A stretch of 20,454 bases of DNA from Thermoplasmata archaeon (lineage in GTDB: Archaea > Thermoplasmatota > Thermoplasmata > UBA10834). The stretch is taken from positions 1 to 20,454 of the forward strand of contig JALOTO010000007.1 in the NCBI GenBank assembly GCA_025457845.1, read 5' to 3'. The position numbers and the translations under genes are program-made. Under the pieces are notes generated by a model that searched no databases, was not told where the DNA came from, and worked only from the letters and a program-made list of their open reading frames with translations. This document shows, piece by piece, positions 3,783 through 13,680 of this stretch (position 1 is its first letter; each line of letters opens with the position of its first letter).

Positions 3783-4637
3783 CTAGAGGTTTACCTTGGT
3801 CTGGTGGACTTCCAGCCCGAGCTTCTCCTTGGGCAGCCCGAAGGCCAGTCCGAGGATCTGCATCAGGTGCAGCACGGGTATGGCGAACTCGCCCTTGAGG
3901 GCGGCCTGCCCCGCGTCGTACTGCAGGTGGCAGAACGGGCAGCAGTCGACTATGACATCCGCGCCGGCGTTCTTCATGTTGACCAGGTTCTCCCTGGTCA
4001 TCTTGAGCGCCACGTCCGGGGTCCTGGCCCTGACGCCTCCGCCCGCGCCGCAGCACATGCCCTTGTCCTTGTACACGACGCTGGTCATTCCCGCGGCCTC
4101 GACTATGTCGTCGAAGACGTGCGGCCTCTCGGCGTCGTCTATCTTCTTGATGTTGCTGGGCTTCAGGAAGTGGCAGCCGTAGTGGACCGCTGCCTTGAGG
4201 TTCCGGCCTCCCTTGGCCTTGGCCCTGATCGCCTCGACGCCGACGTCCCTGTACAGGAGCTCGACGAAGTGGCGGACGTTGACCGTCCCGTTGTACTCCA
4301 TCCCGGTGGCGTCCTTGAGGATCTTGTTGACCTTCTTCCTCAGCTCCGGGTCGTGGTTCAGCTTGTGGGCGACCTCGAACAGCGTGTCGAAGCAGCCGTT
4401 GCAGATGGTGACTATGTCGACGCCCATCTTCTCGGCGATGGCGAGGTTGCGTGCCGCGACGCTCATCCAGTAGGTCTGGTCGAAGGACCTCATGACCCCT
4501 GGCGCGGGGCAGCAGCTCGCGCCCTTCATGTCGACGATCTCGACGCCCAGCGAGCTGAAGACCTCGCGCGACGAGGACTCGATGCCCGGGTACCTGAGCG
4601 GCATTATGCATCCTAGGAAGAATCCGTACTTGGCCAT
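3783..4637 (-). CDS. hdrB: Heterodisulfide reductase subunit B
   Basis: HdrB is the catalytic subunit that reduces disulfides (CoM-S-S-CoB in methanogens) at two non-cubane [4Fe-4S] clusters. Both CCG domains are complete. The first has C10, C42-C43, C79 and C82; the second has C155, C195-C196, C233 and C236. Spacing is C-x31-CC-x35-C-x2-C and C-x39-CC-x36-C-x2-C, inside the range known for cluster-binding HdrB. Length (284 aa) is normal. The ATG at 4637 starts one base after the hdrC stop, with GGAGG inside the end of hdrC, so the two are translationally coupled. No hdrA or mvhD lies in the window. Partner electron donor and true substrate are therefore unresolved, and HdrB-like proteins also occur in non-methanogens. 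Confidence 0.95.
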   Translation of the reverse strand: MAKYGFFLGCIMPLRYPGIESSSREVFSSLGVEIVDMKGASCCPAPGVMRSFDQTYWMSVAARNLAIAEKMGVDIVTICNGCFDTLFEVAHKLNHDPELRKKVNKILKDATGMEYNGTVNVRHFVELLYRDVGVEAIRAKAKGGRNLKAAVHYGCHFLKPSNIKKIDDAERPHVFDDIVEAAGMTSVVYKDKGMCCGAGGGVRARTPDVALKMTRENLVNMKNAGADVIVDCCPFCHLQYDAGQAALKGEFAIPVLHLMQILGLAFGLPKEKLGLEVHQTKVNL

Positions 4638-4638
4638 C

Positions 4639-5163
4639 TCACTTGCCTCCTGTCTGGACGAGCTTGTCGAAGCCGCAGATCGCTGCGATCTTCTTGACCT
4701 CCTCGAGCGCCTTCGGGTCGGAGAAGACGGTCGGCGGGGTCCCCTCGAGCCCGAGCTTGGACCTGAGCGCCTTGTCCTCGTCCCTGAGGGTCACGAGGTG
4801 GCCGGTCTTGGAGATGAGCTCTGCGACCTTCCTGTGCGGCTCGGCCATGTAGCCCTTCCTGACCGCCAGGTTCCTGAGGGCCATTATCACGTCGACTATC
4901 TCGACGCCCCTCGGGCAGCGCTCGTAGCATGTGAAGCATGTGGTGCACAGCCACAGGTCATCGGATGGCAGGACGTCCTCCTCGAACCCCAGCTGCGCGC
5001 GCCTGACGAGCTTCCTGACCCTGAAGGCGGTCTGCCTCCCTGACGGGCAGGAGCCAGTGCACGTGCCACACTGGAAGCACAGGTTGACTGTCTTGCCCCC
5101 TCCTTCGACTACCTTCCTCGTGAACTCGGGGTTCGGTTCCTTCGCCTCCGGCAAGATATTCAC
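4639..5163 (-). CDS. hdrC: Heterodisulfide reductase subunit C
   Basis: This is the iron-sulfur electron-transfer subunit that relays electrons to HdrB. It carries two cubane [4Fe-4S] motifs: C29-x2-C32-x2-C35-x3-C39-P and C73-x2-C76-x2-C79-x3-C83-P. It has no membrane segment, so it is the cytosolic HdrBC type rather than HdrDE. The C-terminal third is a helical domain. The longest start is GTG at 5163, 23 nt after a TATA-like TTATAC, which fits a leaderless message. A TTG three codons later (5154) is preceded by AGGTGA at 5-nt spacing and is the alternative start. It is the first gene of the run hdrC-hdrB-90 aa-46 aa-M20. Family assignment is secure; the start is not. Confidence 0.93.
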   Translation of the reverse strand: MNILPEAKEPNPEFTRKVVEGGGKTVNLCFQCGTCTGSCPSGRQTAFRVRKLVRRAQLGFEEDVLPSDDLWLCTTCFTCYERCPRGVEIVDVIMALRNLAVRKGYMAEPHRKVAELISKTGHLVTLRDEDKALRSKLGLEGTPPTVFSDPKALEEVKKIAAICGFDKLVQTGGK

Positions 5164-8738: not shown

Positions 8739-9251
8739 ATGGCCTCTCGAAAGTACATCCTCAAGGTGTGCCTCCTAGGAGACGGCGCGGTCGGGAAGAC
8801 CAGCCTCATACGGAGGTACGTCTTCGACGCGTTCGACGACAAGTACCTCGTCTCCTTCGGGACGAAGGTCTCGAAGAAGCTCGTGACGGTCGACGACGCA
8901 GAGGTCGACCTGATGATATGGGACATACTCGGCCAGAGGACCAACGAGTCGCTCCACGCGGCCTACTACAGGGGCGCCGCGGCCGCGCTGGCCGTATGCG
9001 ATTTCACCAGGCCCGCCACCATGGATTCGCTCAGCTCGTGGCTGACGAGCTTCAGGTCGGTGGTCGGAGACGCGCCTGTCATCATCCTAGCGAACAAGAG
9101 CGACCTTGAGCGGCAACTCACCATGGACGACCTCAAGGCTTTCGGGCAGTCCACGTCGTGCGACGTCCTCGAGACCAGTGCCAAGACGGGGCAGAACGTC
9201 GAGGAGGCCTTCTCCGCGATCTGCAGGAAGCTCGTGGGGGCCCCGAAATGA
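8739..9251 (+). CDS. Rab/Ras-like small GTPase, 170 aa
   Basis: This is a Ras-superfamily molecular switch, closest in look to Rab. G1 is GDGAVGKTS (14-22), G3 is WDILGQ (61-66) with the catalytic Gln66, G4 is NKSD (119-122) and G5 is ETSAK (145-149). The Rab hallmark YYRGA follows switch II at 76-80. The G2 position reads SFG where Rabs have TIG, so Ser39 probably replaces the effector-loop Thr. The protein ends GAPK, without Cys residues for prenylation, and has no membrane segment, so it is cytosolic unless a partner recruits it. It is first in its operon. Its stop overlaps the start of the V4R-DUF835 gene (ATGA), so the two products are made together. The GTPase assignment is secure; process and partners are inference. 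Confidence 0.93.
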   Translation: MASRKYILKVCLLGDGAVGKTSLIRRYVFDAFDDKYLVSFGTKVSKKLVTVDDAEVDLMIWDILGQRTNESLHAAYYRGAAAALAVCDFTRPATMDSLSSWLTSFRSVVGDAPVIILANKSDLERQLTMDDLKAFGQSTSCDVLETSAKTGQNVEEAFSAICRKLVGAPK

Positions 9252-10180
9252 GGACCATCCCCTTCTTCGTCATGCCAGGCGTGGCCCTGGCCCACCTCCG
9301 GGAGGAGCTGGAGATCGAGGAGGGGGAGAGCAAGGCGAAGCTCATGCTCTACAGGTACGGTCAGCGGTGTGGCACCGCTCTAGTCGAGAGCTACGGCCTC
9401 TCGTGCGCCAACCTCGGTGAGGTCAGGTCCGTCATCGAACCGATATGGATGGAGGCCGGCCTGAGCAGGATCCGCATCGACACCGCCGAGGAGGCCGACA
9501 TGATGGTCAACCTCGAGGACTCGATCGAGGCGAAGGAGGGCAACAGCTGCGAGTTCGCCAGGGGCTACCTCGCGGGCATAGTCTCCGCCCTCACCGGCAA
9601 GAGGTTCGAGGTCGAGGAGGTCGAGTGCGTCAGCCAGGGGTACATCTCATGCGTCATGCAGGTGTACGAGGTCGCCGACCAGCTCAGGCCCGTCAAGCAC
9701 ACGGACCTCGAGACGGCGAGGAAGTACACCCTCGACACCGGCTACTCCTACATCATCAAGGAGGAGATCCCGGACCAGGCCTTCGACATATTCGTCGACG
9801 CGGCCAAGCACGGAATCCCCGCGCTCTGCGTCACCAGGGAGTACCCTGAGAAGGTCAAGGAACGCTGGGACATCAGGGGAACGCCCTTCCTGTGGCTCTC
9901 GATGGACCAGGAGAAGGACTTCTCCAGGGACCCTTCCAACCTCGCCCTGCTCTACTCGGACATGAAGACCTTCATAACCGGGAACAGGGGCTGCATCGTC
10001 CTTCTCTCAGGGATCGAGTACCTCGTCTCCCAGAACGGCTTCAGCAAGGTGCTCAAGCTGCTCCAGCACCTCAACGACAAGATAGCGGTCACGGAATCCA
10101 CGCTCATCGTCCCTGTCAGCCCTCTCACGCTAGCTGAGCCCGAGCTCAAGATGCTGGAGAAGGAGCTGCGCTCGTTCTAA
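9248..10180 (+). CDS. V4R-DUF835 two-domain protein, 310 aa
   Basis: This is a soluble putative regulatory protein. Residues about 1-145 form a V4R (4-vinyl-reductase type) domain. Helical segments rich in MLYRYGQRCGTALVE lead to the diagnostic block EGNSCEFARGYLAGIVSAL, then VEEVECVSQGYISCVMQV, with Cys101, Cys127 and Cys135 as possible metal or ligand residues. Residues about 165-307 match DUF835: YIIKEEIPDQAFDIFVDAAKHG, then a FLWLS strand and GCIVLLSGIEYLVSQNGF, then a final PVSPLTLAEPEL segment. No signal peptide or membrane helix is present. The ATG at 9248 overlaps the GTPase stop by 4 nt, which is why the longer frame beginning inside the GTPase was not used. V4R is related to the TRAPP subunit Bet3, so action on the neighbouring GTPase is a reasonable hypothesis. 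DUF835 has no established activity that I know of. Confidence 0.85.
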   Translation: MRTIPFFVMPGVALAHLREELEIEEGESKAKLMLYRYGQRCGTALVESYGLSCANLGEVRSVIEPIWMEAGLSRIRIDTAEEADMMVNLEDSIEAKEGNSCEFARGYLAGIVSALTGKRFEVEEVECVSQGYISCVMQVYEVADQLRPVKHTDLETARKYTLDTGYSYIIKEEIPDQAFDIFVDAAKHGIPALCVTREYPEKVKERWDIRGTPFLWLSMDQEKDFSRDPSNLALLYSDMKTFITGNRGCIVLLSGIEYLVSQNGFSKVLKLLQHLNDKIAVTESTLIVPVSPLTLAEPELKMLEKELRSF

Positions 10181-10191
10181 GGTCGTCTTCC

Positions 10192-10644
10192 ATGAGGTAC
10201 GCTGTGATAGTCTGCCCCGCATGCGGGAAGGCGCGGGGAGTGGAGTCGGGGAGGAAGACCACGGCCTGCCAGTGCGGCAAGGAGATAGACGTCCAGAAGG
10301 TCAAGTTCCAGTACGAGACCGACTCCCCGATGGACCTCGCGAACGCCGTCGCGCAGGCGAACGCCCTCATCCTCGGGGGGGAGAGGCTCAGGAAGGAGCG
10401 CCGCTCGAAGAAGAAGGACCCGTTCGCGGCGGTCGCGGAGAAGGCGAAGGTCTTCAAGGACCCGCTCGAGAGGCTGAAGGCGGTCGCCCGCGAGCTGACC
10501 TCGGCGGGAGGGGACTTCGGGGTCGAGGAGCTGAAGAAGGTCGCGCCGCTCCTCGGAAGGATGACCGCCGAGGACATGGCCGCGAGGATGCTCGAGCACG
10601 GGATCGTCTACGAGACGGCCGACGGAAGGTTCAGGCTGGTCTGA
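10192..10644 (+). CDS. DUF1922-like zinc-ribbon protein with C-terminal winged helix, 150 aa
   Basis: The N-terminus (about 1-45) is a zinc ribbon. It has CPACGK at 8-13 and CQC at 26-28, set in an archaeal DUF1922-like context (VIVCPACGKA, then a K-TTACQCGKEIDVQKVKF strand). A highly charged Arg/Lys-rich stretch follows (LRKERRSKKKDP). The C-terminal 50 residues (GVEELKKVAPLLGRMTAEDMAARMLEHGIVYE) resemble a winged-helix DNA- or protein-binding module. It starts 11 nt after the V4R-DUF835 stop on the same strand, so it is third in the GTPase operon. The stop lies 3 nt from the convergent membrane-protein stop. The zinc site is seen; the winged helix and any nucleic-acid role are inference. 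Confidence 0.75.
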   Translation: MRYAVIVCPACGKARGVESGRKTTACQCGKEIDVQKVKFQYETDSPMDLANAVAQANALILGGERLRKERRSKKKDPFAAVAEKAKVFKDPLERLKAVARELTSAGGDFGVEELKKVAPLLGRMTAEDMAARMLEHGIVYETADGRFRLV

Positions 10645-11739: not shown

Positions 11740-13680
11740 CTAGCCTTCCCTCTTCTTCTTCGTCTTGTCAGTCTTCTTCGGAGCGGGGGCCGAGAGGTCG
11801 CCCGCCAGCTTGTCGAAGTAGTGCGCCACCACGCAGCTCTCGGCGCACTTGCCGCACATGTCGCACCGCTCCTCGTCGACAGTAATTCCTTCCTTGAGAG
11901 CGATGGCGCCCTTCTCGCAGGCCCTGACGCAGATTCCGCACTTGGTGCACATGTTCGCCCTGAGGACCGCCCGCGCCACGGCGTCGAAGTACCTCGATGC
12001 GTCCTCCGGGCTGTCGCCGACGGACGCGATCTGTCCGCCCGCGAAGACCTTCGCGTTGGCCCTCCTCGAGCCGACCATGACCACGCCGAACTCGTCGACC
12101 AGGTGGACATCCCCGACGGTCTTGAGCAGCTCGGAGGCCTGCTTCAGCCCCGCCGACGACGGGGTCATGAGCACCGCCTCTACGGAGTACCCTCCCGCGA
12201 CGCATGGGCTGATCCCCTTGAGCACCCTCATGGTGGCGGTGTCGGCCCTCCGCTCCTTCACCTCGATCCCGAGCCTGGACGCAAGCTCGTGCATCTTGGG
12301 CGGGAGCTGCTTCCATCTCCAGAACCCGTGTGTGGCGAACTCCTTGGGCAGGCCGTTCTCCTTGGCCCAGTCCTCGAGCCTGGCCTCCCACGCCTTGGCC
12401 ATGTCCGGGTTGAGCCTCGAGACCTCCGCGGCCTCGCTCGCCAGCGAGGATGGGCACATCCAGCAGCCGACCCTCTCGATGTCCTCGTCGTAGAGCCGGT
12501 TGTAGTCGAGCTTCCTCATGAGTATGTGCAGCCAGACGTCGAGGGCCGTCCAGTCGCGTATCGGGTTGACTATGACCTGCCCTGGGACGAACGGGTTCTC
12601 CTCTATCAGGTCCGTGTGGGCCCTGGTGAACGACTCGAGCCGCCTGTTCCCCTCGATGGTGAGGGTGCCGCTCGGGAAGTGCTCGCCTATGGCCTTCGTC
12701 ACGGGGGCGAGCTTGCAGACCTTGCAGCACCATCTGAAGTCCTTGGCCGGAGGTCCGAACGCCCCGAAGTTCTCGTCGAAGGCGTTCCCCGCGTGGGCGG
12801 TTATGAGCCGCAGCCCGTGCTCGTGGGCGTAGCGCTTGACATAGGACCTGGTCGTCGGGTGCTCGAGCCCGGTGTCGATGAATATGACCGCGAAATCCTT
12901 CGCGACGGACGAGACGAGGTCGAGTACAACGAGGCTGTCCTTCCCCCCGCTGAAGGAGACGCTCACGGGCAGTTTCCTCTCGGCGATGGCGTCCCTGACC
13001 TCGTGCTCGGCCTTCGCCCTCTTGGCGGCGAGGTACTGCAGGTTCGCCTTGATGACATCCTTCGGCCACGCCCTCTTCCTGGGGAGCAGCGGGCCCGCCT
13101 GCGTGAGGTCCCTGACCTTGATCCCCTTCTCGGCCGTGCGCAGGTCCTTGGCGTCGACCTTGGCCGAGCCGCAGCCGATGAACTTGCCCATCTGGATGAC
13201 GACCTCGTCCCCCGCCCTGATGCCAGGGTCGAACGACTCGATGGCGTCGGGGGGCAGGTACTTGCCCTTCATGTGCCCGTCGGCCTTCCTCAGCTTGACC
13301 ATCCTCTTCGGGTTCATGAGCGCGAGCATGCGCGCCCCGTCCATCCTGAGGGTGAGCGAGTAGTCCCTCTTCTCGAGGTCGTATGTGAGGAGCGCGACCC
13401 TCCTCCCGTCGATTATGACCTCGTCCGCGCGGTCCTCGCCGGAGCTCTTGTTAAGGACGAATATGTCCGGCACGAGCTGCTGGACGCCGAAGTGCTTCAG
13501 GAACAGGTACCTCAGCCTGCGCTTGGTGCCGTCGAGGGCTATCCTGACATCCCCGGGCGGGGAGAGGTCTATCTGCCAGCCCGGCTCGCCGCACTTTCCG
13601 CAGGTGCTCCCCACCAGGGGGACGTTGCACCTGTCGCACCAGAAGAGGGCGGGCCTGGCCTGGCCGTGTTGATGGTCCAC
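11740..13680 (-). CDS. PUA / PAPS-reductase-like / ferredoxin fusion protein, 646 aa
   Basis: This is an archaeal multidomain PP-loop protein. In order: a zinc ribbon (Cys15, Cys18, Cys27, Cys30); a basic linker; a PUA-like RNA-binding domain (about 85-175); a phosphoadenosine-phosphosulfate-reductase-type domain with the PP-loop SFSGGKDS (242-249), IDTGLEHP, and the cluster-type cysteines Cys318-Cys319-x2-Cys322 with GCWMCP (Cys406, Cys409); then a C-terminal 2x[4Fe-4S] ferredoxin (Cys578, 581, 584, 588 and Cys606, 609, 612, 616). The tail is Lys-rich. It starts with GTG at 13680, about 28 nt from a TATA-like box, so the message is probably leaderless. The PUA plus PP-loop plus Fe-S layout suggests sulfur transfer to, or reduction on, an RNA or protein. 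Sulfate assimilation is the other option. Exact chemistry is not established by the sequence. Confidence 0.88.
   Translation of the reverse strand: MDHQHGQARPALFWCDRCNVPLVGSTCGKCGEPGWQIDLSPPGDVRIALDGTKRRLRYLFLKHFGVQQLVPDIFVLNKSSGEDRADEVIIDGRRVALLTYDLEKRDYSLTLRMDGARMLALMNPKRMVKLRKADGHMKGKYLPPDAIESFDPGIRAGDEVVIQMGKFIGCGSAKVDAKDLRTAEKGIKVRDLTQAGPLLPRKRAWPKDVIKANLQYLAAKRAKAEHEVRDAIAERKLPVSVSFSGGKDSLVVLDLVSSVAKDFAVIFIDTGLEHPTTRSYVKRYAHEHGLRLITAHAGNAFDENFGAFGPPAKDFRWCCKVCKLAPVTKAIGEHFPSGTLTIEGNRRLESFTRAHTDLIEENPFVPGQVIVNPIRDWTALDVWLHILMRKLDYNRLYDEDIERVGCWMCPSSLASEAAEVSRLNPDMAKAWEARLEDWAKENGLPKEFATHGFWRWKQLPPKMHELASRLGIEVKERRADTATMRVLKGISPCVAGGYSVEAVLMTPSSAGLKQASELLKTVGDVHLVDEFGVVMVGSRRANAKVFAGGQIASVGDSPEDASRYFDAVARAVLRANMCTKCGICVRACEKGAIALKEGITVDEERCDMCGKCAESCVVAHYFDKLAGDLSAPAPKKTDKTKKKREG

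Follow-up and report, generated by a model that had tools for sequence, protein, structure and literature searches.

Can a small GTPase of an archaeon have a dedicated partner built on the fold of Bet3, a subunit of the eukaryotic vesicle-tethering complex TRAPP, and what would such a partner do? The question is raised by a locus of a Thermoplasmata archaeon, lying in a stretch of 20,454 nucleotides (contig JALOTO010000007.1, positions 1 to 20,454; hereafter the window), in which the gene of a Ras-family small GTPase runs into that of a protein composed of a V4R and a DUF835 domain. Following this pair through related genomes, we found that the two genes stand together far beyond chance, and we conclude that the GTPase very probably has its dedicated partner in the V4R-DUF835 protein. 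The genes of the unit, in window coordinates, are:

8739..9251, + strand: Ras-family small GTPase gene, 170 residues, C-terminal cysteine absent
9248..10180, + strand: V4R-DUF835 partner gene, 310 residues counted from the ATG at 9248
9248..9251, + strand: ATGA combining the GTPase stop and the V4R-DUF835 start, an overlap of 4 nucleotides
10192..10644, + strand: third open reading frame of the unit, 150 residues, with a zinc-ribbon start, DUF5817/DUF1922-like below cut-offs

The Pfam matches to both proteins of the pair are above cut-off: Ras PF00071 (E-value 3.6e-35) and Roc (1.2e-27) for the GTPase, V4R PF02830 (6.4e-12, residues 92-139) and DUF835 PF05763 (5.8e-28, residues 176-307) for the partner. 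A preliminary description of this DNA had recognized a GTPase with G1, G3, G4 and G5 motifs and a YYRGA signature, its 4-nucleotide coupling to the following gene and the V4R-DUF835 nature of the latter, and these three points are borne out by the motifs together with PF00071, by the ATGA at 9248-9251 and by the two Pfam families of the partner. It had also spoken of a unit of two genes; the pair stands, while the third frame, which begins 11 nucleotides 3' of the V4R-DUF835 gene and is present in 20/20 loci of group A and 14/22 of group B (see below for the groups), had been overlooked.

Conservation of the pair across genomes

The closest V4R-DUF835 loci, 19 in number, come from a scan of genome contigs. 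Among the matches listed by a search across the class of G002 (400 genomes), in which the family extended to about 29-31% identity, every one spanning both domains was taken, plus the truncated L080, and further loci come from a phylum-level alignment search of 389 genomes; diverged members may be missing. The relatives of the partner are named Thermoplasmata archaeon, Methanobacteriota archaeon and, once, Bathyarchaeota archaeon. A GTPase gene lies directly upstream in all 19 close loci, and in the wider set that includes them (64 loci in 62 genomes: L001-L019, L034 and L040-L083) it is found there on the same strand in 60. When the partner is taken to begin at the start codon closest to the stop of the GTPase, the two genes overlap in 43 of these 60 pairs, by exactly 4 nucleotides in 32, with gaps ranging from -11 to +61 nucleotides. 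The remaining four loci are L068, where only 99 nucleotides precede the match, L083, where the genes are fused, and L058 and L065, which have no GTPase. The phylum search added nine loci, eight of them in new genomes, and all nine have an adjacent GTPase, upstream within about 100 nucleotides in eight and directly downstream, 89 nucleotides away, in L149. Together, the 73 loci from 70 genomes of this class and phylum comprise 68 with the GTPase upstream, one downstream, one fused, two without and one that ends at a contig edge and is untestable, which gives a GTPase adjacent or fused in 70/72 testable loci. The survey of adjacency beyond chance proposed in the preliminary description, made here within this class and phylum, came out in favor of the pair, and the conserved neighborhood, whose absence in relatives it had named as speaking against its idea, is present. 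As a control, the 18 V4R matches of genomes G001-G005 were compared: a Ras match lies within 2 kb of 5/5 V4R-DUF835 genes and of 0/13 others. In four genomes (G156, G075, G164 and G196, whose completeness is not given) the paired GTPase is the sole Ras-family match.

How independent these loci are can be judged from their neighbors, which we compared within 6 kb for 53 loci, considering the 40 largest gene clusters listed (5 or more loci each). The loci fall into groups A (20, including the window), B (22), C (8) and D (2). Groups A and B have a wide block of neighbors in common and their loci are therefore not independent; groups C and D share with them only the GTPase and the partner among those clusters, antisense frames over the two genes aside. 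The other neighbors vary by group and the pair is retained. The arrangement itself also varies: group C has two tandem GTPase genes upstream of the partner, and L137, L138 and L151 have a second GTPase gene after it.

A natural fusion of the two proteins was found in genome G011 (P0241, locus L083). It is a single frame of 527 residues with matches above cut-off to Ras (1.1e-17) and DUF835 (4.8e-30), it aligns to the partner family over residues 6 to 309 with 29.5% identity, and its middle part is predicted to contain helices and strands in the order of V4R. Searched against the 7995 candidates sharing most words with it, the fusion retrieved only itself and one DUF835 protein of 315 residues. 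Two alignments for the fusion were dropped, a larger mixed one that put GTPases on the V4R part and another that split the last third of the GTPases.

Some details of individual loci were noted on the way. At L151:623-3184, three genes overlap on both sides in the order GTPase, V4R-DUF835, GTPase, and a short V4R-like gene (identified by eye) lies nearby on the opposite strand at 4541-4948. In L067, L071, L074, L076 and L079, the outer (first) GTPase of the tandem is prolonged at its C terminus by about 90 residues, unlike the inner one.

Sequence and predicted fold of the two proteins

The motifs of the GTPase, with their conservation in the 59 aligned pairs, are:

8778..8804, + strand: G1/P-loop GDGAVGKTS (residues 14-22); K20 and T21 in 59/59
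8853..8855, + strand: G2 Ser39 in switch I, positioned by alignment to Thor-Rab; S in 33 and T in 26 of 59
8919..8936, + strand: G3 WDILGQ (residues 61-66) with catalytic-type Gln66; W61, D62, L64, G65 and Q66 in 59/59
8937..8978, + strand: switch II (residues 67-80), L72-H73...Y76-Y77-R-G-A, YYRGA being residues 76-80
9093..9104, + strand: G4 NKSD (residues 119-122); N119, K120 and D122 in 59/59
9174..9185, + strand: G5 TSAK (residues 146-149); T146, S147 and A148 at a frequency of 1.00 in 59

Judged by its sequence, the GTPase has intact nucleotide-binding motifs and belongs to the Ras superfamily (PF00071), to which both the G1-G5 motifs and the Pfam match assign it. Its best solved relatives are the Thorarchaeota Rab 7ezb (1.5e-30) and Rab14 (2.2e-30), and among the best 60 of 851 solved relatives every entry that names its family is a Rab, Ypt or Sec4. 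Compared by eye with the RabF motifs, YYRGA and WDxxGQ are present and FGTKV takes the place of IGVDF. The C-terminal prenylated-cysteine motif of Rabs is absent from the window GTPase, which ends in KLVGAPK, and only 3/59 paired GTPases have any cysteine in their last six residues. In a quick tree of 58 sequences, with branch supports from the Shimodaira-Hasegawa-like approximate likelihood ratio test (SH-aLRT), the paired GTPases of groups A, B and C (including L101, the same gene as L079) form one cluster with a support of 83, and the GTPase part of the fusion is a long, unsure branch. Two Rab landmarks pair together (99) outside the paired group, both being on an unresolved deep fork of 49 rows. 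The pairing of GTPase and partner may have several origins or an early divergence behind it.

We then compared, position by position, 57 paired GTPases with 28 unpaired ones (23 paralogues and the 5 first genes of tandems). At the sequence level, switch II of the paired GTPase differs from that of the unpaired ones: nine positions are conserved in the paired rows only. Switch II holds five of these and switch I one, which amounts to 6/32 positions in the switches versus 3/138 elsewhere (Fisher p 0.0016). His73 is present in 59/59 of the paired set by alignment and in all nine further neighbors (the eight upstream and that of L149 downstream); glutamine occupies this position in the five first tandem genes and in the downstream GTPase of L151.

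The features of the partner protein are:

9248..9679, + strand: V4R/Bet3-fold domain (about residues 1-144; Pfam V4R, residues 92-139), from Pfam and the predicted fold
9716..10177, + strand: DUF835 domain (residues 157-310) of KaiC/FlaH fold, without Walker A, from Pfam and the predicted fold
9548..9652, + strand: putative zinc site formed by C101 (9548-9550), E124 (9617-9619), C127 (9626-9628) and C135 (9650-9652)

The first half is a V4R domain (PF02830, COG1719) by its Pfam match above cut-off and by its modeled fold, and the model also shows the fold typical of Bet3/TRAPPC3, in which helices 2 and 5 each carry a pair of glycines; these pairs, G38/G42 and G106/G110, are found in 59/59 partners, and the definition of the Bet3 fold by such pairs has been given for V4R too (PMC2253512). 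The best fold match of the predicted V4R half is with the phenol sensors MopR and PoxR, closer than with Bet3. C101, E124, C127 and C135 are kept in 56, 56, 58 and 56 of 59 pairs and have the spacing of C151, E174, C177 and C185 in the aligned PoxR chain; in PoxR and MopR these residues bind zinc. The second half is a DUF835 domain, that is, a predicted inactivated KaiC: its Pfam match is above cut-off, its model has the KaiC fold, and the Walker A pattern GxxxxGK[ST] is found in 0/59 partners. DUF835 is listed as an inactivated KaiC in the relevant passages of PMC5847659.

Proposed roles of the partner

A direct partnership of the GTPase and the V4R-DUF835 protein appears highly probable because of the linkage of their genes, the fusion and the partner-specific switch II. 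Several observations weigh against it, or against one of its supports. Partners without a GTPase exist (L058 and L065, in genomes G032 and G011, which nevertheless contain other pairs, L079 and L152, or the fusion). In the fusion, the middle part lacks both a Pfam V4R match and the cysteines, position 73 is a glutamine, and the model (predicted template modeling score 0.47, from 17 sequences) gives no confident domain arrangement or interface. L081 of group D lacks part of the Cys/Glu site, and the GTPases of this group cluster with paralogues of G092, one of their own genomes (SH-aLRT 98). The enrichment in the switches is uncorrected for kinship, most paired rows being of one tree group, and His73 also occurs in 7/28 unpaired rows, including 4/5 G092 paralogues, which weakens it as a mark of pairing.

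What the partner does is a separate matter, for linkage data do not tell an exchange factor, a GTPase-activating protein, an effector and a scaffold apart, nor an upstream regulator from a downstream effector. The preliminary description had proposed that the V4R protein may be a regulator (exchange factor, scaffold or sensor) of the GTPase; dedicated partnership is very probable, and a regulator is not distinguished from an effector or scaffold. We give about an even chance to a dedicated two-protein switch, in which the V4R-DUF835 protein would bind the GTPase and, depending on a ligand, govern its nucleotide state. The V4R pocket would take a hydrophobic molecule, as in PoxR and MopR, the partner would work as a dimer, as V4R/Bet3 proteins do, and it would touch switch II of the GTPase. 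Since the GTPase keeps its own glutamine, the partner would more likely promote GDP release or stabilize one nucleotide state than provide catalysis, and the KaiC-fold half would relay the state onward. Our preference for such a ligand-sensing regulator rests on this glutamine and on the V4R fold, which is known above all for input functions.

An effector or scaffold role is nearly as likely, because DUF835 is also an output domain, listed among those of archaeal response regulators in the passages of PMC5847659 devoted to them. Here the GTPase would be set by something else, its GTP form would bind, recruit or release the partner, and the KaiC-fold half would be the output; we hold this to be a serious possibility, somewhat short of an even chance. 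The linkage, the fusion and the switch II data fit it equally well, and the loci where GTPase genes flank a single partner on both sides (L137, L138, L151) or stand in tandem (group C) look platform-like. Also in its favor, roadblock proteins, described as GTPase regulators in the relevant part of PMC10933270, have matches in 14/15 genomes searched. However, in none of the 14 genomes that have the pair or the fusion does a Robl_LC7 match lie less than 10 kb from it (no pair was found in the fifteenth, G067). The V4R fold, moreover, is better known as an input sensor, which favors the ligand-sensing regulator. Separate Ras-roadblock neighbors were seen at G032:C26 and G067:C9.

It had further been suggested that the two genes mirror the partnership of TRAPP and Rab. 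The underlying relationship is the one given in the literature, in which V4R is related to Bet3 and proposed as its ancestor and no GTPase partner is named for prokaryotic V4R (PMC2253512). The likeness extends to the GTPase, which has Rabs for its nearest solved relatives, to the Bet3 fold and to the glycine pairs of that fold. It fails at the C-terminal cysteine, absent in 56/59 paired GTPases, at the closer fold match to MopR/PoxR and at the longin subunits and roadblock genes, neither of which is present in the unit. That the pair is the direct forerunner of the Bet3-Rab1 partnership, its V4R protein having exchange activity, is thus quite unlikely, the more so as in the tree the paired GTPases do not group with the Rab landmarks (deep forks unresolved). 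We know of no TRAPP counterpart for the KaiC-fold half.

A V4R-roadblock unit present in the same genomes is closer to TRAPP in composition than the GTPase-V4R pair. A roadblock gene adjoins a V4R-only match in 5/5 genomes (G001-G005): at L119:3154-3913 in G005, a V4R-only gene (136 residues) is followed after 1 nucleotide by a roadblock/LC7 gene (115 residues), and the others lie near G001:C11:311142, G002:C1:177999, G003:C1:1005755 and G004:C1:1508917. The distance to the pair is about 12-18 kb in four genomes and about 830 kb in G002. A bolder reading, which we consider doubtful, would have the V4R protein of non-Asgard archaea regulate nucleotide exchange on a Ras-like GTPase in a ligand-gated manner, place a client relation of Bet3 fold and small GTPase before TRAPP, and see in the V4R-roadblock unit the other half of a TRAPP-like machine that has this GTPase as its target.

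Finally, an old shared gene order without joint function, to which the many other neighbors shared by groups A and B and the correlation of 0.91 between GTPase and partner distance matrices would lend themselves, is very improbable, since groups C and D have only the pair in common with A and B among the listed clusters, sandwich, downstream and fused arrangements occur, and none of the 13 other V4R genes stands beside a GTPase. We did not count this correlation as a sign of contact, since vertical inheritance by itself would produce it.

Known systems and neighboring genes

The pairing is widely kept in Thermoplasmata-type archaea and looks like a dedicated two-part signaling device, for which several known systems offer a comparison. 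In bacteria and archaea, MglA is likewise a GTPase of the Ras superfamily whose gene often neighbors that of a small dedicated partner, MglB, the passages of PMC4316618 on this family counting 404 of 488 MglA sequences as coupled to MglB. That partner is a roadblock protein, whereas here it is V4R plus a KaiC-like domain, and the coupled roadblock (MglB) gene that marks the MglA family is absent within 10 kb in 14/14 genomes with a pair or fusion. Group 1 Rup is also a prokaryotic Ras-like GTPase with conserved signaling neighbors; according to the passages of PMC4316618 that describe it, these are a coiled-coil protein, an OmpA-type protein and a cyclic di-GMP or kinase protein, and the G3 glutamine is lacking, in contrast to Gln66 in 59/59 of our pairs. 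The DUF835 examples given in the relevant part of PMC5847659 are response regulators (REC-DUF835 and REC-PAS-PAS-DUF835); the domain studied here resembles them in its Pfam match, KaiC/FlaH fold and lack of Walker A, and differs in standing behind V4R in one protein and in its linkage to a GTPase.

The V4R half has its own relatives in the sensors PoxR, MopR, DmpR and MJ1460 (COG1719), from which it differs in being attached to a KaiC-like domain and encoded beside a GTPase. Three of these sensors, PoxR, MopR and DmpR, activate transcription. Ligand binding has been suggested for V4R in an Asgard study (PMC10933270, in the part concerned), and single Rab-like proteins have been reported from a Thermoplasmatales archaeon and Aciduliprofundum in the section of PMC4915359 on such proteins. 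The term V4R is absent from PMC4316618, V4R and TRAPP are both absent from PMC4915359, and no description of the GTPase-V4R-DUF835 pair was found in the open-licence literature searched. Conserved and once fused, the unit offers a small two-gene system for testing the cooperation of a Bet3 fold with a Ras-like GTPase outside eukaryotes, and it connects small GTPases with the KaiC-like signaling domains of archaea.

Other genes accompany the pair. In group B (e.g., L040 and L050), a gene of about 156 residues, resembling by eye a pyruvoyl-dependent arginine decarboxylase, lies between the V4R-DUF835 and the zinc-ribbon gene, and such a gene follows the partner in 16/22 loci of this group. In the window, HdrB- and HdrC-like subunits, above NCBIfam cut-offs, are encoded at 3783-5163 on the - strand, and genes of these types lie upstream in 29 and 30, respectively, of the 42 loci of groups A and B. 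At 11740-13680, the - strand encodes a protein resembling PAPS reductase that has PUA and 4Fe-4S domains (of the PRK13795 type, below the NCBIfam cut-off), and its gene recurs in 33/42 neighborhoods of the two groups. At the edge of the window, a protein that by eye is of the peptide-binding type is split over two frames of the - strand (980-1519 and 1-939), which suggests a frame break, real or sequencing-derived.
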